DNA of 37,761 bases. It comes from an uncultured Prevotellaceae bacterium. Its GTDB lineage: Bacteria; Bacteroidota; Bacteroidia; Bacteroidales; Bacteroidaceae. Under the pieces are notes generated by a model. It made no database searches. It was not told the DNA's origin and was given only the letters and a program-made list of their open reading frames with translations. The position numbers were made by a program, and so were the translations under genes. This document shows, piece by piece, positions 6,847 through 37,319 of this stretch; positions within the stretch are counted from its first letter, which is position 1, and each line of letters opens with the position of its first letter. Location of the stretch: the NCBI GenBank assembly GCA_946185225.1, contig CAMHIM010000008.1, positions 1 through 37,761 on the forward strand, written 5' to 3'.

Positions 6847-9800
6847 ATGAACCTACTAATCAAGAGAGCCTCAGTGGCTTTACTTATGTCCATGGTGTGC
6901 TTCTTTGCCTATGCACAGAAGAACGTCACGGGAACAGTGAAGGATGCAAACGGCGAACCCATGATTGGCGTAAGCGTTGTTGTCGACGGTACCTCCATCG
7001 GAGGTGTCACAGACATCAACGGTAACTTCACCATTCAGAAAGTACCTGCCAATGCTGTCCTGAAAGTATCTTACGTCGGCTACAAGGAGCAGAAAGTCTC
7101 CGTGGGTAGCAAGAACAGCGTTAGCATCACCATGCAGGAAGATGCCATGGGCCTTGACGAGGTCGTGGTCATCGGTTACGGTGTTGTCAAGAAGCGCGAC
7201 CTCACCGGTTCCGTGGCTTCTGTCAAGTCAGAAGACATCAAGAATGTTGCCGGCGCCAATGCCATGCAAGCCATGCAGGCGAAGATTCCTGGAATTGACA
7301 TTCAGCAGAGTTCTGGTGAGGCCAGTGCCGGTGTAAGCATCAACCTCCGCGGCGCACGTTCCATGCTGGCCAGCAACGACCCGCTTATCCTCGTTGACGG
7401 TGTGGCCTATGGCTCGACGCTGGACATTAACCCGTCGGACATTGAGTCCATGGAGGTCCTGAAGGACGCATCATCAACAGCCATCTATGGTACACGCGGT
7501 GCTAACGGTGTCATCATCATCACCACCAAGCGCGGCAAGGCCGGAAAAACGCACGTCAACTTCAACTTCTACAACTCCTTCAACAGCCCCACATCGCCCG
7601 CCAAGGCCATGTATGGTGACAAGGAAGTGCAGCGTCTTATTGACAAGGCCGAGTACGCAGCCAACTATGCTACCTACAAGAACAACTACGGCACCGACAA
7701 TGCCGGATGGGGTACAGCAACCGTTACTCCTGAAGACGTACTGACCCTCCAGCTGGCAGACGGAACATCTGTTCTGGACATCTATAAAGACAAGTCATAC
7801 ACCGACTGGTCCGACTATATTCTTCAGAATTCCTCTTCACAGAACTATGAGATATCTGTGACCGGCGGTAACGACAAGACAAACTTCAACATGTCGCTGG
7901 GCATGATGAATGCCAATGGTCTGATGAAGAATGACGTATTCCACCGCTACAACGGCAAGATTAACCTGGACCACAAAATCAACAACTATTTCAAGGTTGG
8001 TTCCAGTATCCTCTATACCTACAGAAACAACGACCGTCGCAACTCCGGCGTTTATGGCCAGTCACTGAAGATGACGACCATCACCCACGCCTATCTGGAG
8101 GACGGAAACATCAACCTGCAGCCGAACCCATGGTATGCTGCTCACGTATCGCCGCTGGCTGACGACGAGCCGAACGCCTACAAGAACAACACAGAAGGCA
8201 CACGTTTCTTCGGCAATGCCTACGTAGAGGCAACCCCCATCAAGGGTCTCATTCTTCGTTCCCAGTTCGCTTTGGACAGCAAGAACAGCCGCGAGGGTCT
8301 CTATCAGGACATGTACAGCCAGCAGCGTTTCCAAAACGGAACGACAAGTACCATCCGTCAGTACAAGACTAACACCAATGCTATTACTTGGGATAACACT
8401 GCCAACTACATGACCTCCTTCGGCAAGCACGACATGACATTCCTGCTGGGTCATGAGTTGTCGCAGAGCGTTACCGAGTCGTCCACCGTCAGCGGTGATG
8501 CCGGAGCCGTTCACCTGGACAAGAGTCAGTTCTACGACCTTTCCAAGGCCGTCTCGCTGGTAGGAACCAACACCTACGTGAAGACCTCTATGCTCTCCTT
8601 TTTCGGACGCGTGAACTACAGTTACGCAGAGAAATACCTCTTCCAGGCCTCTCTACGTGCCGACGGTTCGTCAACCCTCGCCGATGGTCACAAGTGGGGC
8701 TACTTCCCCTCAGTCAGTGCCGGTTGGCGTATCACCGAGGAGTCCTTCATGGAAAGCACAAAGTCGTGGCTGAGCAACCTGAAGCTTCGTCTCAGCTGGG
8801 GCTTGTCAGGTAATGCAGCCATCGGTGCCTACTCTACACTGGCATCGCTCAGTGCCCTGAACTACTATTATTACCTTGGCGGCAATGACGTTGCAGGAAA
8901 GGTTCCCAGCAATATGGCCAACAACAACCTGACCTGGGAGAAGACTTCGTCCTTCGACCTCGGTTTGGACTACGGTTTCCTGAACGGTCGTCTGCAGGGC
9001 AGTATTGACCTTTACTGGAACAAGACCTACGACCTGCTGTTCTACAAGACCGCTCCCGCTGCCGGTGGCTTCCCCACCGTCATCGACAACATCGGCAAGA
9101 CAAAGGGCATGGGTATTGAATTCTCGCTGATGGCCGACATCATCCGGACCAAGGACTTCGACTGGACAGCCAACCTCTCCTACACTCACTTCAAGGATGA
9201 AATCACGGAGCTGACCGGCGGCGTTGACAAGTACATCAGTGGTACAACAGCCCTGTTCGTCGGTGAGCGCGTACACGCATACTACGACTACAAGCCCATT
9301 GGCAACTGGGGTATCGACGAATACGACCAGGTACGCAATGCCTGGAACGAGGCTCACCCCGACAAGCCCATGGCAGCCTGGGACAAGAAGAACGATGGTT
9401 ACGGAACTCCCGGTTCGCCCAAATACCTCGATGTCAATCAAGACGGAGCAATTACCGATGAGGATCGCGTCATCTACAATCAGGACCCCGACCACGTCAT
9501 CGGCTTCAACAACACCTTCACCTATCGTGACTTCTCCCTGAGCATCCAGGCCATGGCCCGTCTCGGCGGATACATTGCCTACAACATGAACGACCAGCTG
9601 AACTACGAGAGTGCTAACTGGGGTAATGACATTGACTACTGGACTCCCGAGAACCAGAACGCCAAGTTCCCCAGCCCTGGTCTGACTTCTAACGGTGCCA
9701 AGAACTGGTCAAGCAAGAGGTCATCCTTCCTCTACGAGAAGGCCGACTACTTCAAGATTAAGGACATTACTCTCTCGTACAACCTTCCGAAGAGTCTCTT

Positions 9801-9951
9801 TAAGAACTTCCTGAGCAGTTGTCGCGTCTATGCCTCCATGAAGAACTTCTTCACCTGGAGCAAGATTGACAATTACGACCCCGAGCGTGGCGGTGCTATT
9901 ACATTCCCCATGATGAAGCAGGTCGTTCTCGGTTTGAACGTTGAATTCTAA
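6847..9951 (+). CDS. SusC/RagA-family TonB-dependent outer-membrane transporter
   Basis: Carboxypeptidase-regulatory-like NTD (VTGTVKDANGEPMIGVSVVVDGTSIGGVTDINGNF), LDEVVVIGYG, plug LVDGVAYGSTLDINPSDIESMEVLKDASSTAIYGTRGANGVIIITTKRGK; C-terminal F. Confidence 0.97.
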   Translation: MNLLIKRASVALLMSMVCFFAYAQKNVTGTVKDANGEPMIGVSVVVDGTSIGGVTDINGNFTIQKVPANAVLKVSYVGYKEQKVSVGSKNSVSITMQEDAMGLDEVVVIGYGVVKKRDLTGSVASVKSEDIKNVAGANAMQAMQAKIPGIDIQQSSGEASAGVSINLRGARSMLASNDPLILVDGVAYGSTLDINPSDIESMEVLKDASSTAIYGTRGANGVIIITTKRGKAGKTHVNFNFYNSFNSPTSPAKAMYGDKEVQRLIDKAEYAANYATYKNNYGTDNAGWGTATVTPEDVLTLQLADGTSVLDIYKDKSYTDWSDYILQNSSSQNYEISVTGGNDKTNFNMSLGMMNANGLMKNDVFHRYNGKINLDHKINNYFKVGSSILYTYRNNDRRNSGVYGQSLKMTTITHAYLEDGNINLQPNPWYAAHVSPLADDEPNAYKNNTEGTRFFGNAYVEATPIKGLILRSQFALDSKNSREGLYQDMYSQQRFQNGTTSTIRQYKTNTNAITWDNTANYMTSFGKHDMTFLLGHELSQSVTESSTVSGDAGAVHLDKSQFYDLSKAVSLVGTNTYVKTSMLSFFGRVNYSYAEKYLFQASLRADGSSTLADGHKWGYFPSVSAGWRITEESFMESTKSWLSNLKLRLSWGLSGNAAIGAYSTLASLSALNYYYYLGGNDVAGKVPSNMANNNLTWEKTSSFDLGLDYGFLNGRLQGSIDLYWNKTYDLLFYKTAPAAGGFPTVIDNIGKTKGMGIEFSLMADIIRTKDFDWTANLSYTHFKDEITELTGGVDKYISGTTALFVGERVHAYYDYKPIGNWGIDEYDQVRNAWNEAHPDKPMAAWDKKNDGYGTPGSPKYLDVNQDGAITDEDRVIYNQDPDHVIGFNNTFTYRDFSLSIQAMARLGGYIAYNMNDQLNYESANWGNDIDYWTPENQNAKFPSPGLTSNGAKNWSSKRSSFLYEKADYFKIKDITLSYNLPKSLFKNFLSSCRVYASMKNFFTWSKIDNYDPERGGAITFPMMKQVVLGLNVEF

Positions 9952-9962
9952 AACAGCAAACA

Positions 9963-12050
9963 ATGACGATTATGAAAACAAAGATTTTTTTCACTATAGC
10001 CGCATCGGCAGTGATGTTCGGCATGACCTCCTGCTCCGACTTCCTGACGGAAGACAACAAGGTAGGTGAGACCGCTGAACTGTCATACAGTACCCCCAAT
10101 GGTCTGGAAGGCCTGGTTGCCGATTGCTACACGTTCGCCCGCGGATGGTACGGCAAGGAAGCCGGCCTGGGTCTGAGCGAGATGGGTACCGACCTCTTCT
10201 ATTATGGTTACGACAACAAGCAGAAGTCCCTCTGCAGCTATACATTCACATCGGCATCACTGGGCAATGGCAACACGGCTGACAACCCCTGCCTGGATGA
10301 CTATTGGGAGTTGTTCTACTGCGCTACGGACGTATGTAACAATGCTATCAAGTATGTTAGCGACGCTACCTTCCTGAGTGCAACGACGAAGAACCAGTAT
10401 TTGGGCGAGACCCACTTCCTGCGTGCTTTCTACTACTTCCACCTGGTCAACATATGGGGCGACGTTCCCTACTTCGACACTCCGACCACTGCTCAGGTCT
10501 TCAAACCTGTGCGCATGGCAGAGAACAAGGTGTATGGCAAGATTCTGGAAGATATCGACAAGTCCATTGCCTACTTCGACGAGGCCGGCTACAAGACCAA
10601 GGAAGACGGACGTGCCAACTACTGGGCAGCCCGTGCTCTGAAGGCTCGTGTCCTGCTTTATGCCGCATCATGGATTTCCGAGCAGTTGGGTCTGCAGATT
10701 GAAGGCAATGACGAGTACGCCTCCATGAGCACTGCACAGCTCTATGCTGCTGCCAAGACCGAGGCCGAGGCAGTCATCGGTGCCAGCGATTACGCATCGT
10801 TCTACACGAACTATGCCGACGTATGGTCGATGAAAAACGAGAGCTACAACACCAATAAGGAGGCTCTCTTCGGAATCACCTACTCACAGGACCTGAAGAC
10901 TACCGTAAACTGTCTGCCCAAGCGTTATCGCCTGAGCGGTGGTTCTCCCATGGACTACAACTCGCTGATTACGCGTACGGGCTACAGCCGTGGCGGTTCG
11001 GCTATGCTGCTGATGTTCGTGCCGATGTGGAACAACGGTGCTGACGACTTTGGCGGTTCAGGAACCGGTCATGACAAGAACGGCAACATCACTGAGAAAG
11101 ACAAGACCCGCATCTTTATCCGTTCACTGGCTGACGCCACCAGTTACCTGCCCAGCTCGGAAACTGGCGAGGACATCTTTGTTGCAGACAAGTACTCTCC
11201 CTACGGCCGTGGTTTCACCCGCTACCTGCCCTCACTCCGTCTGTGGCAGTTGCTGGACAGCCGCAAGGCTACGGACCAGCGCTACGAGGCTACGCTGCTG
11301 ACCCACTACGATGTTGCAAGCCCGAAACTCTACAAGAACGCCAAGAACTATCCTGAGATGCAGCAGGACACAGCCATCTTCTATGCCATGGTTGACGGAA
11401 ACTCTGCTGAAGGCGAGGCCATGCAGGCATGGGCCAAGAACAAGTACCGCATCCAGTTTGCCGCTGGCGGCGACATCCCCGTCTACACATCCATGGATCC
11501 TGCTACAGCACTTCCCACCGAGAAGGCCAAGAACCCATCTGACGTCTATGGTGACAAGCGCTACAACAGCTACAAGATTGGCGGATGGTGCTCTTTCCCC
11601 GGTATCAAGAAGTTCCTGGACAACGTTTACGACCCTACCTATCGCACTCATGACATCTCCAGCCGCGACGCCATCGTCATGCGCCTTCCCGAGATGTACC
11701 TGATTAAGGCTGAGGCAGAACTGAAGACTGGTGGCGATGCACTGTCTACCATCAATGAACTCCGCAGCAAGCGCGCCATCAGCGGTCAGGATAATACAAC
11801 CAACGAGGCTGCAAGCATTGACCTCATTCTTGAGGAGCGTGCCATTGAGTTCTGCGGAGAGCAGATGCGCTGGTTCGACCTGAAGCGTACAGGCAAGCTG
11901 TACGAATACATCAACAAGTACAACGCCCAGGCTTCTGGTGCCATCAGTGGCGATGCTACAGGAAAGAAGTTCCTGTACCGTCCTATCCCGCAGAGCGAGA
12001 TGGATGCCATACAGAATCCTGGTGAGTTCAAGCAGAACCCCGGCTGGTAG
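9963..12050 (+). CDS. RagB/SusD-family nutrient-binding lipoprotein
   Basis: MKTKIFFTIAASAVMFGMTSCSDF lipoprotein signal; SusD C-terminus (RLPEMYLIKAEAELKTG...LILEERAIEFCGEQMRWFDLKRTGKL...PIPQSEMDAIQNPGEFKQNPGW); paired with SusC. Confidence 0.96.
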   Translation: MTIMKTKIFFTIAASAVMFGMTSCSDFLTEDNKVGETAELSYSTPNGLEGLVADCYTFARGWYGKEAGLGLSEMGTDLFYYGYDNKQKSLCSYTFTSASLGNGNTADNPCLDDYWELFYCATDVCNNAIKYVSDATFLSATTKNQYLGETHFLRAFYYFHLVNIWGDVPYFDTPTTAQVFKPVRMAENKVYGKILEDIDKSIAYFDEAGYKTKEDGRANYWAARALKARVLLYAASWISEQLGLQIEGNDEYASMSTAQLYAAAKTEAEAVIGASDYASFYTNYADVWSMKNESYNTNKEALFGITYSQDLKTTVNCLPKRYRLSGGSPMDYNSLITRTGYSRGGSAMLLMFVPMWNNGADDFGGSGTGHDKNGNITEKDKTRIFIRSLADATSYLPSSETGEDIFVADKYSPYGRGFTRYLPSLRLWQLLDSRKATDQRYEATLLTHYDVASPKLYKNAKNYPEMQQDTAIFYAMVDGNSAEGEAMQAWAKNKYRIQFAAGGDIPVYTSMDPATALPTEKAKNPSDVYGDKRYNSYKIGGWCSFPGIKKFLDNVYDPTYRTHDISSRDAIVMRLPEMYLIKAEAELKTGGDALSTINELRSKRAISGQDNTTNEAASIDLILEERAIEFCGEQMRWFDLKRTGKLYEYINKYNAQASGAISGDATGKKFLYRPIPQSEMDAIQNPGEFKQNPGW

Positions 12051-12116: not shown

Positions 12117-12178
12117 TCACATTGTCCAGGGAGTGGCATGCCGCCCGTCGCGGCCGTACATACCGTCCTGCCGGACAC

Positions 12179-12323
12179 AAAAGCCGACTTTCAAGGACAC
12201 AAAAGCCGACTTTCAAGGACGCAAAAGCCGACTTTCAAGGGCGCAAAAGCCGACTTTCAAGGGCGCAAAAGCCGACTTTCAAGGGCGCAAAAGCCGACTT
12301 TCAAGGGCGCAATGTCGGCTTTT
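12179..12323. repeat. 22-bp tandem array A: 6 direct units AAAAGCCGACTTTCAAGGRCRC plus terminal inverted copy GTCGGCTTTT
   Basis: Units start at 12179, 12201, 12223, 12245, 12267 and 12289; inverted core at 12314-12323 abuts the stop codon of the minus-strand gene. Confidence 0.97.
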
Positions 12324-26660: not shown

Positions 26661-26726
26661 GAAGGTCCGACACATTCAACGCGAAAGTCCGGCACTTTCG
26701 GGGTAAAAGTCCGGCAGTTTCCCCAG
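26661..26726. repeat. 22-bp tandem array C: three diverged units
   Basis: GAAGGTCCGACACATTCAACGC / GAAAGTCCGGCACTTTCGGGGT / AAAAGTCCGGCAGTTTCCCCAG, starting at 26661, 26683 and 26705; 4 nt after stop TAG 26654-26656. Confidence 0.8.
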
Positions 26727-26744: not shown

Positions 26745-26768
26745 GAAACGAATGCCGTTTCGTTTTTT
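26745..26768 (+). terminator. Short intrinsic terminator-like hairpin after the helicase gene
   Basis: GAAACG / AATGC / CGTTTC followed by GTTTTTT. Confidence 0.6.
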
Positions 26769-26773
26769 CTTCG

Positions 26774-26781
26774 TACCTTTG
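26774..26781 (+). promoter_or_regulatory. -7 element TACCTTTG directly upstream of the S8-S9 peptidase gene
   Basis: TTCGTACCTTTGTCGGCTATG; 6 nt from ATG 26788. Confidence 0.55.
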
Positions 26782-26787
26782 TCGGCT

Positions 26788-29700
26788 ATGAGAGAGATTT
26801 TCTGTAAAATACGAAAAGCACTACTGTTTCTAACACCATTTTGCTACGCTGCAACAGTATCCCTGCCGGCATCCGGCCAGGAATGCGTTGCCGGATGGCA
26901 CAAAGGATACACCCCTACCCTTCAAGGAGCCAACATCGAGGCTGCCCTGCAGTTGCTGCGTGACAGCGGGCGCAAGCCTACAGGTCCCGTAGTAGTAGGC
27001 ATTATTGACTCCGGCATCGACACGACAGCCGTCACTCTGCAGCAAAGCCTATGGACCAATCCCGGCGAACGCCTTGACGGCCGCGACACCGACGGCAACG
27101 GCTATGCCGACGACCTGCACGGCTGGAACTTTCTGGGCACCCGCGACGGCAAGTTCAACATGACGAGTGCCGGCACCGAGGAATACCGCCAGTTCAAGCG
27201 GCTCTACCCCAAGTACAAGAACGTCAAGGAACGCTCAGAGGCAAAGGACAAGAAGGAGTATGACTTCTACCTCAGGATGCGCCACGAGGCCAAGATTGAC
27301 AGCTACCTGCGTTTCTACGAGCTGGCCTGTGAGTCACGGGAGACCATGAACGCCTCGTCGCTGAAGCGGCTGGAGGAAATGGAGAAGAACATCTACAGCA
27401 TAGAACATAGCCAGGACAAGCGGCTGCTCATAGGCGACAACATGGAGGATGCCCGTGACCGCTACTATGGCAACCCGACACTGACCATCGAAGGCTGTGA
27501 GCACGGCACGTTCGTCGCCGGCATCATCGGCGGACAGACGGTTGCCGACTCCCGCTACCAGGGCATTGCTCCCGACATAGCCCGTCTCATGATAGTACGT
27601 GCCAGCCCCGACGGCGACGAGTACGACAAAGACGTGGCCTCGGCCATCCGCTATGCCGTCGACAACGGCGCCCGCGTCATCAACATCAGCCTGGGCAAGT
27701 ACTACTCACCGCAGGAGCGCATGGTGAACGACGCCATCCGCTACGCACAGAGCCATGATGTCGTCATCGTCCATGCTGCCGGCAACAACAGCAAGGACCT
27801 GGACACCATCGCTGTCTACCCCTCGGGAACCAACCGTGCGGGACACTTCTTCGACAACTTCATCCGCGTAGGAGCCACTGACGAACAGGGGCACGTGGCA
27901 GACTTCTCGAACTACGGAGCCTCCAGGGTACACCTTTTCGCACCCGGCACCGACATCGCCTCCGTCTTCCCCGGCAACCAGTACAAGCTGTCACAGGGCA
28001 CCAGTTTATCGGCACCCGTCGTGACAGGCATCATTGCCCTGCTGCGCAGCTACTTCCCCGAACTGAAGGCCCCGCAGATACGTCAGTTGCTGATGGAGAC
28101 GGTGCGGCCCATGGACGGTAAGACAAGCATCAGCGGCGGCACCGTCGACATGCTGGCAGCCGTCCACCGGCTGACTGACGGCCCCGTCAACTGGTATGGC
28201 GCCGAGTCCGTCAGCGAGAAGAACGTCTCCTCACTGGTCAGCAACCTGAACATTTTACCCTCCTTCATCAGCGGGACCCCCTTCGTCAAGTGGGAGAAAG
28301 ACGACAAGCAGTTCATGGTCGATGCCCGTACGGGCAAGGTAACCCCCCTGAACCAGGACGTCATCGACGCCTACAAGCGCCGTCACCCGAAGGAGCAGGA
28401 GGAAGACCGCTTCGGGTTCCACTTCGGCAAATCGACACAGACCCGCGACTCACTCTACACCATGCTGGGCGACCGCTACAACCTGCATGTACGCGACAAC
28501 CGCACGGGCGACATCCGCCAGCTGACCACCGACGGCCGCGCCTTCGCCTCCTACTGTTCCCAGGGTGCGAAGGACACACTGAGCGAGAAGCATCCCATTG
28601 GATTCTGGCGCGGACACGTGTACCTGTGCATGGTCTACGACGACACCAAGGTAGGCTACCTGAACATCGTACACAGCACAGTCACCCCCCCCAGTCTGGA
28701 GCAGAAGAAGATGCCCCTGCCCGGAGGCAATGCCATCCGTCACTACCGGCTCTACTGGTATAACGCCGACACCGGCGAAGGCCGGCTGCTGCCCGTCTCG
28801 CCCCGTCCTGACGACTTCATCCAGCTGGACTACGGCAAGGAGGACGATCACATTTTCCTGCTGCGCCGCAACCGCAGCGTCGACACGCTGGAGCTGTGCC
28901 GCATCGACATACCCACAGGTGAGATACGTACCGTCATCTCTGAGCCATGCCTACCCCACGTGAACGTCAATATGTTCCACTACCACGTGCTCAACCACGG
29001 CCGTGAGATACTCTGGTGGAGTGAGCGTACAGGACGCGGCAACTACTACCTTTACGACGGCCGCACAGGACAGCTGAAGAACCGTGTCACCCTGGGCGAC
29101 GGACTGGTGGCAGGACGCATTGAACACATCGATACACTCGGCCGTAGCATCGTCTTCCTCGGCTACGGACAGGAGCAGGGCGTCGACCCCAACTACACCT
29201 ATTATTATAAGGCAAGTCTTGACGGCCGCCGGCAGCAATTGCTGACCTACGGCAACGGCGAACACCAGCTGCAGTTGAGCCACAACGGGCGATGGGCCAT
29301 TGACACCTACTCACGCATGGACCTGCCACCTGTCTACAATGTCGTCAGTCTCGACAACCCCAAGAAGCACTTTGAGTTCTACCGCACCAGCGAGGAAGAC
29401 TGTCTGAAAGCTGGGTGGGTAAAGCCTACGCTGGTCAAGGTGAAGGCCGCCGACAACGAGACCGACCTCTACGGCGTCATGTACCTGCCGCGTGAAGCAC
29501 GCGAGAACCCCGCCACTACGAAGAAGTTCCCCGTCATCTCCAACGTCTACCCCGGTCCGCAGGACGACCAGATACCCCGTAGGTTCACCGTCGACGAGAA
29601 CGGCAACCAGTCGCTGGCCGAGCTGGGCTTCGTCGTCGTCAACGTCCAGCCCCGCGGCTCGTCGCCCCTGCGCGGACGCGACTTCTACTGCTACGGCTAC

Positions 29701-30213
29701 GGCAACCTGCGCGACTACCCCGTGGCCGACGACCGCCACACCATTGAGACGCTGGCCGCCAAATACCCCTTCATCGACCTCGACCGCGTGGGTATCTACG
29801 GCCACAGCGGTGGAGGCTTCGAGACGGTAGCCGCCATGCTCAACAATCCGGACTTCTACAAGGTCGGCGTGGCCGCCTCCGGCAACCACGACAACAACGC
29901 CTACATCCAGTGGTGGGCCGAGACCTACCACGGCTACGGCCGGCCCATCCCCACCAACATGGAGCTGGCCTCACGCCTGAAGGGACGGCTCCTGCTCATG
30001 ACGGGCGAGGTGGACGAGAACGTCCCCGTCACCAGCACCTACCGCATGGCCGACGCCCTGATGAAGGCCGGCAAGCGCTTCGATATGTTCGTACTGCCCG
30101 AACAGGGCCACGGACTGGCGGGCGACTACTACCAGAACCTCATCCGCTACTACTTCCTGGAGCACCTCGTGAGTCCGGAGAAGACAGACATAGACATTGT
30201 TAACCACAAATAA
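26788..30213 (+). CDS. Secreted dual peptidase: N-terminal subtilase (S8) + beta-propeller + C-terminal prolyl oligopeptidase/DPPIV-like (S9) domain
   Basis: S8 triad motifs VVVGIIDSGID, CEHGTFVAGIIGG, QGTSLSAPVVTG; S9 triad motifs VGIYGHSGGGFETVAAML, MTGEVDENVPVTSTYRMADALMKAGK, LPEQGHGL. Signal peptide MREIFCKIRKALLFLTPFCYAATVSLPASGQ from ATG 26788 (ORF track starts at 26752). Confidence 0.9.
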   Translation: MREIFCKIRKALLFLTPFCYAATVSLPASGQECVAGWHKGYTPTLQGANIEAALQLLRDSGRKPTGPVVVGIIDSGIDTTAVTLQQSLWTNPGERLDGRDTDGNGYADDLHGWNFLGTRDGKFNMTSAGTEEYRQFKRLYPKYKNVKERSEAKDKKEYDFYLRMRHEAKIDSYLRFYELACESRETMNASSLKRLEEMEKNIYSIEHSQDKRLLIGDNMEDARDRYYGNPTLTIEGCEHGTFVAGIIGGQTVADSRYQGIAPDIARLMIVRASPDGDEYDKDVASAIRYAVDNGARVINISLGKYYSPQERMVNDAIRYAQSHDVVIVHAAGNNSKDLDTIAVYPSGTNRAGHFFDNFIRVGATDEQGHVADFSNYGASRVHLFAPGTDIASVFPGNQYKLSQGTSLSAPVVTGIIALLRSYFPELKAPQIRQLLMETVRPMDGKTSISGGTVDMLAAVHRLTDGPVNWYGAESVSEKNVSSLVSNLNILPSFISGTPFVKWEKDDKQFMVDARTGKVTPLNQDVIDAYKRRHPKEQEEDRFGFHFGKSTQTRDSLYTMLGDRYNLHVRDNRTGDIRQLTTDGRAFASYCSQGAKDTLSEKHPIGFWRGHVYLCMVYDDTKVGYLNIVHSTVTPPSLEQKKMPLPGGNAIRHYRLYWYNADTGEGRLLPVSPRPDDFIQLDYGKEDDHIFLLRRNRSVDTLELCRIDIPTGEIRTVISEPCLPHVNVNMFHYHVLNHGREILWWSERTGRGNYYLYDGRTGQLKNRVTLGDGLVAGRIEHIDTLGRSIVFLGYGQEQGVDPNYTYYYKASLDGRRQQLLTYGNGEHQLQLSHNGRWAIDTYSRMDLPPVYNVVSLDNPKKHFEFYRTSEEDCLKAGWVKPTLVKVKAADNETDLYGVMYLPREARENPATTKKFPVISNVYPGPQDDQIPRRFTVDENGNQSLAELGFVVVNVQPRGSSPLRGRDFYCYGYGNLRDYPVADDRHTIETLAAKYPFIDLDRVGIYGHSGGGFETVAAMLNNPDFYKVGVAASGNHDNNAYIQWWAETYHGYGRPIPTNMELASRLKGRLLLMTGEVDENVPVTSTYRMADALMKAGKRFDMFVLPEQGHGLAGDYYQNLIRYYFLEHLVSPEKTDIDIVNHK

Positions 30214-30223
30214 CTGGACAGAC

Positions 30224-33200
30224 ATGAAGAGAATCCTCCTGTTTCTAATGCTACTACCACTGGCGGCCCTGGCACAGACCAGGGACGGCGGCGTACAGGT
30301 CAAAGTCGACATCACCGTTGTTGACGAGAACGGCGACATTCTGCCAGGAGCCTCTGTCAAGACCTCTGACAGGAACCTCGGCGTCGTCAGCGACATCAAG
30401 GGCCACGCCAGCCTGTGGGCTTCCAAAGGCTCCACGCTCACCATCACCTACATCGGCATGAAGCCACGCACCATCAAGGTAGGCACCAAGGCCATCACGG
30501 GCAACATCGTCCTGGAGAACGAGGCTACCTCGCTCGACCAGGTGGTGGTGACAGGCTACTCGCAGACGGACATCCGCAAGTCTACCGGCTCCGTAGGCAT
30601 CCTCACCGAGAAGGAGCTGAAGGACCAGCCGCTGGCTAATGTCGACATGCTCATGCAGGGAAAGCTGGTGGGCGTCAACGTCCAGGCCGTCAGCGGACGC
30701 CCCGGTGAGAGTGCCAAGATACGCATCCGCGGTACCGCCTCCATCACCGGCAACAACGAGCCGCTGTGGGTGGTCGACGGCGTTCCCCTGCAGAAGAACA
30801 TCCCGGCGATGGGCAACTCGTACATCCGCTCCGGCGACTTCTCCACCCTCTATGCCAACGGCGTGGCGGGTATTGCACCACAGAACATTGAGAGCATCAC
30901 CGTGCTGAAGGACGCTGCCGCTGCCGCCATCTACGGCACCCAGGCCCAGGCAGGCGTCATCGTCATCACCACGAAGAAGGGCAAGGCGGGTACTATCCAC
31001 GTCAACTACAGCGGCAACGTGTCCATACAGACCTCTCCCTCACGTGACGCAAACCTGATGAACAGCGAGGAGAAACTGGCCTACGAGCAGAGCATCTGGG
31101 ACGAGTTCTCGGCCAACGGCTACGCCAACGGCACGTGGTTCCCCCGTATCGGCATCATTGGCCAGATACGCTCCGGCTACGGCAAGTTCGCCGGCATGAC
31201 GACCGAGGAACAGGACGCCTACATCGACGAGCTGAAGCAGACGAACACCGACTGGTTCAAGGTGCTGTTCCGCAACACCGTCAGCACGAGCCATGACATC
31301 AGCCTCTCTGGCGGCAGTGACAAACTGACCTACTACGTCAGCGGAGGCATGTCGACGAACAAGGGTATCGTCAAGAAGACCGCCTCGGACGGCGCACACT
31401 TCATGTCGAAAATCTCTGCCAACCCCTCAAAAGCCGTCTCGCTGAACTTCGACGTCTCCTATAGCTATCTGAAGAGCCTGTCAGCCAGCAACTCGTTCAA
31501 CATGTTCACCTATGCCTACTTCGCCAACCCCTACGAAAGTCCATATAATGACGATGGGTCCTACAAGGGTGACGACACCTACTTCTCCCTGGCCCGCGTC
31601 AACGGTGACCTGTTGCACATTCTGCCTGACAACGGCGTGAACGTGCTGCGCGAGATTGACGGCACCAAGATGGTGGCTACCAGTTCCTCCATGACCCTGC
31701 GCGGCGACATCACCTACCGGCTGAACGACCACTTCCGGCTCTACGGACTGGCCTCCTACAGTTATAGCACGGACAACTCAGACAACGAAGTCAACCAGGA
31801 CACCTATGCAGCATGGCAGGACCGTCCTTTCGAAGGCTCGAACCTGTTCTCCAAGCGCATCTACGGCAACATGACACAGACGGCCAACAACAACCGCAAC
31901 TGGCAGTTGCGTGCCCAGCTGAACTACAGCCAGACATTCGGCGACATCCACCGCGTCACAGCCCTGGCGGGTTCTGAGGTAAGCAACAACTACGCCAAGA
32001 GCATCTTCCGCAAGGTCTACGGCTATGACCCCGTGACAGGCAACCACTCGCTGCCGCTGCTGGTGGCCGGCGCATCGGGAACCTTCGAAGAGTCGGACAT
32101 GCAGACGTACCAGACCATAGCCAACAGCCTGTCAGGCCAAAGCCGCGTAGAGAATGCCATGGCCTCGTTCTACGGAGCTGCCGACTATGTACTGATGGAC
32201 CGCTACGTGGCCAACGCCACCATCCGTTCCGACGGCTCCAACAACTTCGGTGCCAAGGAGCAGTTCAACCTTACCTGGAGTGCCGGTCTGGCATGGAACA
32301 TAGATGAGGAGTCGTGGATGACCCGCATCAAGCACATCATCAGCCACGCCACCATCCGCCTGTCCACAGGTGTCACCGGCGGCATCAACAAGAGTGTGTA
32401 TCCCGTGCTCATCATGAACTACCAGAACAGTTTCCGTAACAGCGACACACAAGCCTACCGCATGGGTAGCATCGGAAATGCACCGAACGCCCACCTGCGC
32501 TGGGAACGCACGCACGACTGGAACGGAAGCATCGACGTGGGATTCCTGAAGAACCGCCTGAACATGAACCTCTCGTTCTACCACCGCAAGGGCTATGACC
32601 TGGTGACATCGGTACGTGTAGTCTCCACGACAGGATTCACTACCCAAAGCTACAACACCTCCGAGCAGGTAAACCAGGGCGTAGAGCTGATGCTTAACGC
32701 CTCTCCCATCAAGACGAAGGACTGGAGTTGGAGCCTCAGCGGCAACATTGCCTACAACCAGAACGTGCTGACAAAGTACGAGTCACCGCGCGGCAGCATC
32801 TACGGCGACATCTACGTTGACTACCCCCTTGGAAAAATCTTCAGCAGCAAGCCGGCCGGCATTGACCCGGAGACAGGTCTCTACACGTTTGAGAAGCGCA
32901 GCGACTACGATGAGACGGACCCGTACAACTTTGCCAACTACCTCTTCTACATCGGAACGAGCAATTACCCTTGGACGGGCGGTCTTTCTACCCACCTGTC
33001 TTGGAAGAACCTGTCAGTCAGCGTAAGCACATCGTTCTCACTGGGAGCCAAGATAGCCAACTACATCACGCCACGCAGTTCGTACAGCGACGTCAGCCGC
33101 GGCACGAACAACTACATCTACAACACTCGCTACGACGTATATCAGGCACACAACAACATGGTAAAAGAGGCTGCCCACCGCTGGACACCTGACAACCCCG

Positions 33201-33517
33201 TCACCGACGGCTACCCCCGTCTGATTGACGCCCACGGTGATGCGCTGAACCTGAACCAGCAGCAGATACTCTCCTCCATGATTCAGCAGGGCGTGTTCTA
33301 CGAGAACGGCTCCTACTGGAAGATTGGTTCCATGACGCTGACCTACAGCTTCCCGGAACAGATTACCCGTAAGATAGCAGCCTCCAGCCTGGGCATGAGC
33401 TTCACGGCCAACAACCTCTGGATTATCACCAACTACAAGGGTATGAACCCGGAGACGCCGGGAGCCGTGTACCCCATGAGCCGCAGTTTCAGTTTTGGAC
33501 TTAACATTGGATTCTAA
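30224..33517 (+). CDS. SusC/RagA-family TonB-dependent transporter (pair 2)
   Basis: VDENGDILPGASVKTSDRNLGVVSDIKGHASL, SLDQVVVTGYSQTD, LWVVDGVPLQ...IESITVLKDAAAAAIYGTQAQAGVIVITTKKGKAG; C-terminal SFSFGLNIGF. Likely start MKRILLFLMLLPLAALAQ at 30224. Confidence 0.96.
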   Translation: MKRILLFLMLLPLAALAQTRDGGVQVKVDITVVDENGDILPGASVKTSDRNLGVVSDIKGHASLWASKGSTLTITYIGMKPRTIKVGTKAITGNIVLENEATSLDQVVVTGYSQTDIRKSTGSVGILTEKELKDQPLANVDMLMQGKLVGVNVQAVSGRPGESAKIRIRGTASITGNNEPLWVVDGVPLQKNIPAMGNSYIRSGDFSTLYANGVAGIAPQNIESITVLKDAAAAAIYGTQAQAGVIVITTKKGKAGTIHVNYSGNVSIQTSPSRDANLMNSEEKLAYEQSIWDEFSANGYANGTWFPRIGIIGQIRSGYGKFAGMTTEEQDAYIDELKQTNTDWFKVLFRNTVSTSHDISLSGGSDKLTYYVSGGMSTNKGIVKKTASDGAHFMSKISANPSKAVSLNFDVSYSYLKSLSASNSFNMFTYAYFANPYESPYNDDGSYKGDDTYFSLARVNGDLLHILPDNGVNVLREIDGTKMVATSSSMTLRGDITYRLNDHFRLYGLASYSYSTDNSDNEVNQDTYAAWQDRPFEGSNLFSKRIYGNMTQTANNNRNWQLRAQLNYSQTFGDIHRVTALAGSEVSNNYAKSIFRKVYGYDPVTGNHSLPLLVAGASGTFEESDMQTYQTIANSLSGQSRVENAMASFYGAADYVLMDRYVANATIRSDGSNNFGAKEQFNLTWSAGLAWNIDEESWMTRIKHIISHATIRLSTGVTGGINKSVYPVLIMNYQNSFRNSDTQAYRMGSIGNAPNAHLRWERTHDWNGSIDVGFLKNRLNMNLSFYHRKGYDLVTSVRVVSTTGFTTQSYNTSEQVNQGVELMLNASPIKTKDWSWSLSGNIAYNQNVLTKYESPRGSIYGDIYVDYPLGKIFSSKPAGIDPETGLYTFEKRSDYDETDPYNFANYLFYIGTSNYPWTGGLSTHLSWKNLSVSVSTSFSLGAKIANYITPRSSYSDVSRGTNNYIYNTRYDVYQAHNNMVKEAAHRWTPDNPVTDGYPRLIDAHGDALNLNQQQILSSMIQQGVFYENGSYWKIGSMTLTYSFPEQITRKIAASSLGMSFTANNLWIITNYKGMNPETPGAVYPMSRSFSFGLNIGF

Positions 33518-33552: not shown

Positions 33553-34941
33553 ATGAAACGACATATCATCACCATCATGGCAGCCCTGGTGCTGACGGGC
33601 TGCACGGAATACCTGGACATCAAGCCTTACGGAAAGACCATTCCCAAGACGACGGAGGAGTTTGCTGCCCTTGTCGATCAGATGTGCGATGCCATTGACA
33701 AAGGCTCCGTTCTGGGAGGCGACATAGTGGGCAGCTACGGCAATACGGTTGACCTGGAGTCTGTCAGCGACAACCTGGCCACCAACCTCACAGGCGGCTC
33801 GGACCGGCTACGGACGTACATCGGACAGGACCTGTCGGCTAAACAGTCTGTTTACTTACACCTCTATGAGCAGATTCGCAACTGCAACATCATCCTGGGC
33901 GAGTATCAGGACGGCCGCGACACGCGTGCCGGCAAGGACATCATCGGCACCTGCTACGCCATCCGCGGTGTGTGCTACTATCAGCTGTTGCGCATGTTCT
34001 GCGCTCCGCCGCTGGCCGACGACGCGAAGTTAGGCGTCCCCATCGTCACCTCGTTCGACATGGAGGCCATGCCCATCCGTTCCACCATTCAGGAGACCAT
34101 CGCCCAGGCCGAGAGCGACTTCAAGACAACCATTGAATATGACATCCAGAACGAGATGTACCGCTTCAACAACGATGTGATGCACGGCTACCTGGCACGC
34201 CTGTACCACTGGTGCGGCCGCTGGAAGGAAGCGCGCAGCGAGGCACTGACCGTACTGGAGAACCACCCGCTGCTGTCAGGCGACGACTATACCAGCATGA
34301 TGTCCACACAGTACGGGCTGAAGGGTAACCGTCTGCTCATGGGAAACCTTATCTCTGACAGTCCGCTGGGCATGAGTGCCACCATGTCCTCCCTGGAGGA
34401 GCGACCACTGAGTGCCAGTCTGGCCACGCTCTTCAAGGAGGGAACCAACGACATACGCCGCAAGGGAAACCTCTTCTTCAACCGGAAGCGCAAGAACCGT
34501 AAGCTCATCTTCTCCGGGCTGCGTTCTGCAGAGATGGCGCTTATCGCCATGGAGTGCGCCTACCACCTGAATGAGCAGGAGACGGCACTGACGGAGTTGA
34601 ACGACTTCCGCAGCAAGCGCATCCTGACAGCCGACTACGCCTACACCATGGAAACGCTTCCTGCCGTCAACACAGAGGCGCTGGTGCAGCAGGACGCTAC
34701 GGGGAAACCCCTGACGCCCCTGCTCCAGGCCATCCTGAACGAGCGCCGCAAGGAGCTCTACCTGGAGAACGGCGACCGCTGGTTCGAGCTGAAGCGCAAC
34801 GGCCGTCCCGAGTGGTGGGTAGGCGTCGGCGGCAAGAAGTACTGGACACGCAAGTACATGTACACGTGGCCCATTCCCCTGAGCGACATTCAGCAACAGC
34901 CCGCTCTCATTCAGAACCCCGGCTATGAAGAAACCTATTAA
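33553..34941 (+). CDS. RagB/SusD-family lipoprotein (pair 2, about 460 aa)
   Basis: MKRHIITIMAALVLTGCTEYLDIKPYGKTIPKTTEEFAALVD; AEMALIAMECAYHLNEQETALTELNDFRSKR; ILNERRKELYLENGDRWFELKRNGRP; PIPLSDIQQQPALIQNPGY. Confidence 0.94.
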   Translation: MKRHIITIMAALVLTGCTEYLDIKPYGKTIPKTTEEFAALVDQMCDAIDKGSVLGGDIVGSYGNTVDLESVSDNLATNLTGGSDRLRTYIGQDLSAKQSVYLHLYEQIRNCNIILGEYQDGRDTRAGKDIIGTCYAIRGVCYYQLLRMFCAPPLADDAKLGVPIVTSFDMEAMPIRSTIQETIAQAESDFKTTIEYDIQNEMYRFNNDVMHGYLARLYHWCGRWKEARSEALTVLENHPLLSGDDYTSMMSTQYGLKGNRLLMGNLISDSPLGMSATMSSLEERPLSASLATLFKEGTNDIRRKGNLFFNRKRKNRKLIFSGLRSAEMALIAMECAYHLNEQETALTELNDFRSKRILTADYAYTMETLPAVNTEALVQQDATGKPLTPLLQAILNERRKELYLENGDRWFELKRNGRPEWWVGVGGKKYWTRKYMYTWPIPLSDIQQQPALIQNPGYEETY

Positions 34942-34954
34942 ACCCAAGAACGCC

Positions 34955-35152
34955 ATGAAGTACTTTATATATACTATCCTTACTGCTGCGCTCACCCTGG
35001 GAACTGCATCCTGCAAGCACCTGGAGGAAGAGCCGGAAGTGAACCTCGGCTATGACCAGAACTACGCGGTGCCTGACGCAGAAGACCTGACGCCAGAGGA
35101 CTATGCGGCCATCGCTGCCGAAAAGACAGAGTATAACACAAACGCGAAATAA
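34955..35152 (+). CDS. Small lipoprotein (about 65 aa), SusD-associated
   Basis: MKYFIYTILTAALTLGTASCKHLEEEPEVNLGYDQNYAVPDAEDLTPEDYAAIAAEKTEYNTNAK; lipobox-like GTASC; 13 nt after susD 2. Confidence 0.75.
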   Translation: MKYFIYTILTAALTLGTASCKHLEEEPEVNLGYDQNYAVPDAEDLTPEDYAAIAAEKTEYNTNAK

Positions 35153-35186
35153 CAACTTATTTATTAACCCTATTAAACAAAACTCT

Positions 35187-35660
35187 ATGAAGCAAAAACT
35201 TTACTTAGTACTGCTATTGCTGAGTCTGACACTCTCAGGCAATGCAGAAGAGAAGTGGTGCCTCGTCGTGGAGAACGCCAGTGGTGTAAAAACAGCCATC
35301 GCCATTGATCAGGAGCCAGTCATCACGCCGTCGGCTGATGGCTATTCCCTGGCCTACGGAGCGGTTACCACACAATTCACGTGGAGCGAGTCGGTAACGA
35401 TGACGATTGAGCAGACAGAGCCAACGCCGACAGGCATCAAAGAAGTGAAAGGCACATCCTTCCAACTGGCTCCCGGCGAGGTTGCCATGAAGAACGCCAC
35501 CCCTGGTTCCATGGCTCAGATTGTCACCATCGGCGGACGCCAGGTGAAAGCCGTCCGCGTTGCTGACGACGGCACAGTAATCCTCTCTACAGCAGGTCTG
35601 CCCGCTGGCATTTACATCATCAAAACCAACAAGTCATCCTTTAAATTTATCAAGAAATGA
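35187..35660 (+). CDS. Short secreted protein with a T9SS type A sorting-domain-like C-terminus
   Basis: MKQKLYLVLLLLSLTLSGNAEEKWC signal; C-terminal MAQIVTIGGRQVKAVRVADDGTVILSTAGLPAGIYIIKTNKSSFKFIKK resembles Por_Secre_tail. Confidence 0.75.
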   Translation: MKQKLYLVLLLLSLTLSGNAEEKWCLVVENASGVKTAIAIDQEPVITPSADGYSLAYGAVTTQFTWSESVTMTIEQTEPTPTGIKEVKGTSFQLAPGEVAMKNATPGSMAQIVTIGGRQVKAVRVADDGTVILSTAGLPAGIYIIKTNKSSFKFIKK

Positions 35661-36364
35661 AAAAGCTTATACTTTCCTGCATAGCCATCATGGCTGCTTT
35701 CGTTTGTGCATCAACCGTCAACGCACAAGGTTTCAGAGTTCACACCAAGCAGATGGGTTCCACCGGTTGGGTGAGACTCTTCCCCCGCACCAGTGTGAAC
35801 TTTGTGGACACCTACGACAATAACACGTCTGAGCCCACCATCACGGGAACCTGGAAAATCAAGGAACTGAAGAGCACTGCCCAAGCCATGTCTGACGCAA
35901 ACTACGGCATGGTGACCTTCGGTGATGCATATCCTTCCTTCAATGCTGAGGACAAGATTACCTTTGCTGCAGACGGCACCTTCACACCTAACTTCAAGTC
36001 GAACCTGAAGAATTTCTTCAAGGGGGCAGGAACGTACGTTGCTGCCGACGAGTACGACTTCCATCCCGATGCGATGTCCGGCAGCGTTACAACAGTGAAG
36101 ATGGTCAAGCTCAAGGGGGTCAACCGTAACTTTGACGCTACCAGCACCAGCGAGGACGACGAGGCCTACATCGGCTACCGCATGGTAGAGGACGAAGACG
36201 CCGACGAGGCAGGGGTCTACTTCATGGAAGTTTACTTGCTGGACTACAAGTCAACCTCTTTCGCACCGGAATTCGAAAGTTATTATTTATATAGTGACGA
36301 GAAGCCCACGGCAGCCATGTCAGGCATGGCCATCCTGTTCACCATGACCAAGGAATTGGAGTAA
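35657..36364 (+). CDS. Secreted lipocalin-like hypothetical protein
   Basis: Signal MKKLILSCIAIMAAFVCASTVNAQ; TITGTWKIKELKST opening strand; ATGA overlap with the previous gene. Confidence 0.7.
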   Translation: MKKLILSCIAIMAAFVCASTVNAQGFRVHTKQMGSTGWVRLFPRTSVNFVDTYDNNTSEPTITGTWKIKELKSTAQAMSDANYGMVTFGDAYPSFNAEDKITFAADGTFTPNFKSNLKNFFKGAGTYVAADEYDFHPDAMSGSVTTVKMVKLKGVNRNFDATSTSEDDEAYIGYRMVEDEDADEAGVYFMEVYLLDYKSTSFAPEFESYYLYSDEKPTAAMSGMAILFTMTKELE

Positions 36365-37240: not shown

Positions 37241-37319
37241 GAAAGCCGACTTTGAAGCATTGAAAAGCCGACTTTGAGGCATTGAAAAGCCGACTTTGCG
37301 GACCGCAAAGTCGGCTTTT
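37241..37319. repeat. 22-bp tandem array B: 3 direct units plus terminal inverted unit forming a near-perfect palindrome
   Basis: (G/A)AAAGCCGAC cores at 37241, 37263 and 37285; palindrome AAAAGCCGACTTTGCGG-A-CCGCAAAGTCGGCTTTT 37285-37319. Confidence 0.95.

Follow-up and report, generated by a model that had tools for sequence, protein, structure and literature searches.

The fused gene and its neighbors

The window considered here, the whole 37,761-nucleotide stretch of DNA that was analyzed, is one whole contig of its source genome. On its forward strand lies a gene that joins two serine peptidases of unrelated families, and directly behind it lie a SusC/SusD pair and two small secreted open reading frames. 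The features, in window coordinates, are as follows.

26774–26781, + strand: TACCTTTG box, read from the sequence, ending 6 bases upstream of the ATG at 26788
26788–30213, + strand: fused S8-S9 peptidase gene, 1141 aa (single open frame, Pfam, and the same frame in genomes G408, G125 and G284)
26788–26877, + strand: predicted type I signal peptide, aa 1–30, read from the sequence
26989–28104, + strand: Peptidase_S8 domain, aa 68–439 (Pfam PF00082, 159.4 bits against a cut-off of 21.8)
27007, 27502, 28003, + strand: S8 triad D74, H239 and S406, plus oxyanion N333
27007, 27502, 27997, + strand: starts of the S8 motifs DSG, HGTFVAG and GTSLSAP, by motif reading
28171–28197, + strand: fusion junction, ~aa 462–470, from alignment to the unfused S8 and S9 orthologues
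28477–29331, + strand: DPPIV_N beta-propeller region, aa 564–848 (Pfam PF00930, 52.1 bits, above cut-off)
28576–28581, + strand: T597-L598 at the double-Glu position, by PDB alignments
29608–30138, + strand: Peptidase_S9 hydrolase, aa 941–1117 (Pfam PF00326, 115.6 bits, above cut-off)
29806, 30013, 30109, + strand: S9 triad S1007, D1076 and H1108, by alignment
29800, 30004, 30103, + strand: starts of the S9 motifs GHSGGG, GEVDENVP and QGHGL, by motif reading
30224–33517, + strand: SusC/RagA-type TonB-dependent outer-membrane transporter (Pfam Plug, CarbopepD_reg_2)
33553–34941, + strand: SusD/RagB-type lipoprotein (Pfam SusD-like_3, SusD_RagB)
35187–35660, + strand: small secreted protein, h185 ORF (orthologues in loci L059–L061 and L063)
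35657–36364, + strand: secreted protein, h235 ORF, by locus comparison

The frame at 26788–30213 stays open for 1141 codons with no internal stop, as an earlier sequence-only reading of this DNA had stated, and a further in-frame ATG lies upstream at 26752. From N to C terminus the protein comprises a predicted signal peptide, then a full S8 subtilase, a propeller region of the DPPIV type and, last, a full S9 hydrolase. Peptidase_S8, DPPIV_N and Peptidase_S9 are all found by Pfam, each beyond its curated cut-off, and in a search of solved structures subtilisins match the first half and enzymes of the DPP IV/PTP-A type match the second. The S8 and S9 motifs described in that reading are indeed complete, at positions that it gave accurately to within 9 bases, and its central claim, that two unrelated serine peptidase families share one chain, stands: the catalytic residues of both are complete and both are under purifying selection. 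An AlphaFold2 model of the fused protein, made with one relative (L021) as input, has a pLDDT of 34 and a pTM of 0.26, values too low for judging the active sites.

An assembly join or frameshift artefact is ruled out because three further, independent genomes (G408, G125 and G284, from a sample of 398 genomes of the genus) share the same uninterrupted S8-S9 frame; the G284 locus is the public contig JAFPVW010000168.1, from a Prevotella sp. of goat abomasum. In G139 the fused gene is split over two contigs, both contig ends lying inside the gene, and in G091 the S8-S9 junction is fused and one later frame break, apparently a one-base difference, lies within S9; this break may be either a genuine change or an error. 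The fusion of S8 and S9 genes within this conserved operon of peptidases and SusCD is thus real.

The two peptidase halves

The predicted signal peptide has a basic N-terminal end and a hydrophobic core, and cleavage is expected after PASG, before Gln31. This places Gln at +1, in agreement with the Q-rule of the Bacteroidetes (PMC5837995). No lipobox was seen in the N-terminal sequence, and Pfam gave no Por_Secre_tail match, that is, no T9SS C-terminal sorting domain, in the fused protein.

By its sequence the first half belongs to peptidase family S8, a family of endopeptidases, and endopeptidase activity is predicted for it. D74, H239, S406 and N333 are identical in 15/15 aligned rows, and PF00082 is matched by 10/10 members of a set of S8 homologs (set A3). 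Compared with the separate S8 proteins, some 70 residues of the insertion between Asp and His are gone from the fused protein, an approximate figure from alignment of a variable region. A relationship to anti-phage subtilases (IetS, the PADLOC subtilase) was considered and rejected, as the likeness is at the level of the domain only, inside the S8 region, and the operon context is SusC/SusD. The germination protease CspBA (NCBIfam NF040809, a weak match) is a comparable case, with two subtilase-type units on one chain, although there both units are S8, one is a pseudoprotease, the role is in germination and no S9 domain is present.

In the second half, S1007, D1076 and H1108 are conserved in every relative that covers them, and the oxyanion Tyr is present as Y921 (Tyr547 of human DPP IV, Tyr527 of PmDAP IV), conserved wherever covered. 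The bacterial DPP IV enzymes (PmDAP IV, 5yp1; 4q1v; btDPP4) share with this half the propeller and alpha/beta hydrolase, the Ser-Asp-His triad and that oxyanion Tyr, but they also have a double-Glu motif and an equivalent of Asp646/Asp663, and here there is neither. In PmDAP IV, Glu208-Glu209 hold the N terminus of the substrate and are essential for exopeptidase activity, and Asp646, which corresponds to human Asp663 and to Ala657 in FAP, has been linked to the lack of endopeptidase activity (PMC5807507). In an alignment to 5yp1 the Glu208-Glu209 positions are taken by T597 and L598, the register is the same when a profile of 11 family members is set against 5yp1 (Thr-Leu at the Glu positions), and Glu-Glu is absent at this position from every aligned relative of the S9 half. 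Likewise, the equivalent of Asp663/Asp646 is absent: the residue here is I1040, and it is Ile or Met in all rows covering the position. The best PDB matches of the S9 half are the 2z3w and 2d5l chains, which we take to be PTP-A (their PDB name is dipeptidyl aminopeptidase IV), and in the same 11-member profile the Thr column aligns with a Glu of these chains. In PTP-A, Glu205 of the propeller and Glu636 of the hydrolase presumably hold the N terminus of a tripeptide; the aligned positions here are Thr and Ile.

These comparisons go against the earlier description of the S9 half as a DPPIV-like exopeptidase, which fails on two features, the double-Glu (T597-L598) and Asp663 (Ile1040). As both are missing, an oligo- or endopeptidase is the better guess, and the half is more likely to have oligopeptidase or relaxed endo/exo activity than to be a strict dipeptidyl peptidase. 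The idea of endo- followed by exo-cleavage on one chain therefore survives in part: both triads are complete, but the S9 half is without the anchor residues of a strict dipeptidyl peptidase. It is also worth considering that, relative to the separate S9 proteins, some 50 residues are missing in front of the propeller core (again approximate, from alignment of a variable region), a loss that could impair this half.

Origin and distribution

The sampled 398 genomes of the genus contain 6 fused and 9 separate cases. In the separate loci an S8 ORF of ~480–525 aa lies immediately before an S9 ORF of the same strand, and SusC and SusD come next; eight genomes show this order (G012, G029, G415, G171, G137, G255, G307 and G192), and in the ninth (G411) the contig ends within S9, the remainder and SusC/SusD lying on another contig. 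Genomes G717, G656 and G563, which belong to further families of the order, have the four genes in the same arrangement. The fused gene occupies the place of the separate pair, just before SusC/SusD, and the separate operons (G012, G029, G255, G717, G656, G563 and others) resemble the fused locus in peptidase families (~42–65% identity), gene order, strand and type of SusC/SusD. They differ in that they encode two proteins that normally each have a signal peptide (mostly type I-like, often with Gln at +1), and in their longer S8 insertion and longer S9 N terminus. We located no published description of such separate operons, and a literature search of open-licence papers yielded no report of S8, S9 and SusC together in Prevotella.

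Alignment with these orthologues shows that the S8 stop codon, the S9 start and the S9 signal peptide are all gone in the fused gene, and that the end of S8 runs straight into the mature N terminus of S9 with almost no linker. A single fusion event is likely because the fused rows form one clade in both trees, with support of 100/100 for S9 and 89/100 for S8. Estimates of dN/dS between fused proteins (NG86, a crude method, with synonymous changes near saturation in distant pairs) are ~0.12–0.26 for the S8 region, 0.09–0.36 for the propeller region and 0.12–0.31 for the S9 hydrolase. Both halves are under purifying selection, so neither resembles a decaying passenger, and the fusion is functionally constrained and probably of single origin.

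The sequence-only reading had named orthologues always encoded as two genes as evidence against its claim; in the sister lineages they are indeed two genes, but four genomes of one clade carry the uninterrupted frame. Its remark that it knew of no such standard architecture is borne out by wider searches, which were samples at strict thresholds rather than a census and in which the architecture was not found elsewhere. With the S9 half as query (E up to 1e-80), 393 genomes of the order, from 206 genera, held no other S8-containing frame of fusion size. With the S8 half as query (E up to 1e-30), there were matches in 136 of 396 genomes of the phylum, and every listed frame besides that of the window was shorter than 900 aa. 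The component families are known, and their arrangement appears to be unreported and specific to this lineage.

Long open frames in G012, G029, G307 and G192 had the look of further fusions and on inspection proved to be separate adjacent ORFs. Similarly, a 1058-aa frame in G687 consists of a thioredoxin-like domain and S9, with no S8. That gene (locus L090, 6760–9933), in which the thioredoxin-like domain is N-terminal, sits in another, SusD-containing cluster and represents a second type of S9 fusion in SusCD-linked clusters, independent of the first; in G603 (L091) the two parts are encoded apart, as a thioredoxin-like ORF and an S9 gene. In two of the separate loci (L065 of G415, ~9850–10440, and L066 of G171, ~9600–10020) the first ~130 S9 codons are out of frame with the rest, and this stretch is the same poorly conserved part that is missing from the fused proteins.

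Two other genomes, G043 (L049) and G724 (L086), have an S9-SusC-SusD unit without an S8 gene, and tblastn detected no S8 remnant at either locus. S8 is therefore not indispensable, and from these loci S9 is the steadier partner of this type of SusC/SusD.

The SusC/SusD pair and the genes that follow

The SusC start lies 10 bases 3′ of the peptidase stop codon, an operon context that the sequence-only reading had overlooked, and by their Pfam matches the adjacent genes encode a SusC/RagA barrel and its SusD/RagB lid. Among solved chains SusC is closest to 8ypu_C (367 bits, as against 174 bits for RagA), and the solved-structure search with SusD found no RagB chain; for this reason the substrate of the pair could be something other than peptides. 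We found no paper on 8YPT/8YPU.

In G091 (locus L062, 3747–12038) the SusC beside the fused gene comes from a different clade than the SusC of the other fused loci. Because two SusC lineages accompany the fused peptidase, a broad cargo is favored over a tightly matched one, although the same pattern would result if the gene had been transferred to another locus. The surroundings of the G091 locus also differ, with no RecD-like helicase gene upstream.

The region after SusD (window 35103–36364) holds two small secreted ORFs. The h185 ORF, whose start codon was set by comparison with L021, follows SusD in genomes with the fused gene and has a weak Por_Secre_tail match, below cut-off. The h235 domain recurs in the same place in other genomes as the C terminus of proteins of ~320–430 aa, several of them lipoprotein-like with DUF4843, and it is duplicated within one 414-aa protein in L061/L021.

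A proposed role and its alternatives

We consider it rather probable that the product is a two-headed peptidase of the periplasm, which breaks down peptides brought in by the neighboring SusC/SusD. The gene is the single-chain form of a two-peptidase unit, an S8 subtilase plus a DPPIV-like S9 hydrolase, belonging to an operon conserved in Bacteroidales (S8, S9, SusC, SusD, often followed by a secreted protein or lipoprotein gene). In one Prevotella-like lineage, loss of the S8 stop and the S9 signal peptide has left one protein with one signal peptide. As there is only this one, both activities must serve a single compartment, and the periplasm behind a peptide-importing SusC/SusD is the simplest reading of its location. 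In such a scheme, SusC/SusD would bring in oligopeptides or unfolded polypeptide, the S8 head would make internal cuts in the imported chains, and the S9 head, with its site under the propeller, would cleave the resulting short fragments in the manner of an oligopeptidase or a relaxed endo/exopeptidase, the products going on to inner-membrane uptake.

There is a parallel in the scheme proposed for Porphyromonas gingivalis, in which RagAB takes up oligopeptides that are then trimmed by exopeptidases carrying signal sequences and assigned to the periplasm; there too a SusC/D-type importer is combined with periplasm-assigned S9-family peptidases (DPP4/5/7/11, PTP-A and AOP), although the peptidases are separate and the first cut is made by gingipains rather than by an S8 enzyme (PMC8048996). 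The S9 half described here differs from those S9 peptidases in that it is without the Glu residues that anchor the N terminus. Likewise, the mucin locus BT4240-50 of Bacteroides thetaiotaomicron encodes an M60-like peptidase, BT4244, with a SusC/D pair, but BT4244 is a surface metallopeptidase acting on glycoprotein, the locus contains glycoside hydrolases and it has no S8 or S9 fusion (PMC11992087).

Several features of the locus invite other explanations. It is found in few genomes of the genus, as a housekeeping nutrient system would not be, small secreted ORFs are conserved after SusD, and the S8 half distantly resembles the maturation proteases mycosin and PatA in NCBIfam; the fused protein might then mature or destroy a specific peptide or protein, such as a secreted signal or an operon product like h185 or h235, with SusC/SusD moving that cargo rather than feeding the cell. 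We regard this as unlikely, given that the NCBIfam matches lie far under their cut-offs, that the downstream ORFs differ among genomes, from secreted proteins of ~200 aa to lipoproteins of up to ~430 aa, and that no RiPP or precursor gene was recognized within the window. It seems similarly improbable that the protein is a surface-exposed machine, docked on SusC/SusD and cutting proteins outside the cell before import in the manner of glycan utilisome enzymes. For glycans, stable SusCD utilisomes that include enzymes at the surface are known, a proposal has been made for equivalents with peptidases in the case of RagAB (PMC11817032), and the S8 half does come from an endopeptidase family; nonetheless, the fused protein has neither a lipobox nor a T9SS C-terminal domain, and relatives with solved structures, PmDAP IV for example, reside in the periplasm (PMC5807507).

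The residues lost from each half bear on a further alternative, in which one head alone is active as a peptidase and the other has a binding or structural role. The S9 half is without the canonical DPP anchor residues and the ~50 residues before its propeller core, and the S8 half is short of ~70 residues of its Asp-His insertion; however, in every relative that covers them the six triad residues, N333 and the oxyanion Tyr921 are retained, and purifying selection acts on both halves, so that we judge this very doubtful.

Returning to the two-headed periplasmic peptidase, a fusion of neighboring genes is natural evidence for shared work in one place, and this one links an S8 with an S9 peptidase, and both of them with a SusC/SusD importer. 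SusC/SusD importers are usually discussed for glycans. The fusion would offer a testable assignment for peptide processing by some gut and rumen Bacteroidales, and its S9 half a subfamily of S9 without the dipeptidyl anchor. More tentatively, one may speculate that operons of the S8-S9-SusC-SusD-lipoprotein type make up a class of peptide utilization locus that has not been described, present in several Bacteroidales families, and that the fused enzyme acts as a true two-step relay, its S9 head being an endo/oligopeptidase that can now do without a free N terminus. If true, such an operon would be the protein counterpart of a polysaccharide utilization locus.

Upstream elements and repeats

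The TACCTTTG box just upstream of the fused gene resembles TAnnTTTG, which we take to be the consensus of the Bacteroidetes −7 promoter element; if it acts as such, the transcript would be nearly leaderless. Farther 5′ of the fused gene, two close copies of AAAGTCCGGCA (window 26683–26716) occur above chance in the window, and the pair is possibly regulatory. Elsewhere in the window there are two 22-base tandem repeats, one of 6 copies of CAAAAGCCGACTTTCAAGGGCG at 12178–12312 and one of 2.6 copies of AAAGCCGACTTTGAAGCATTGA at 37242–37298, the unit of the latter being related to that of the former.
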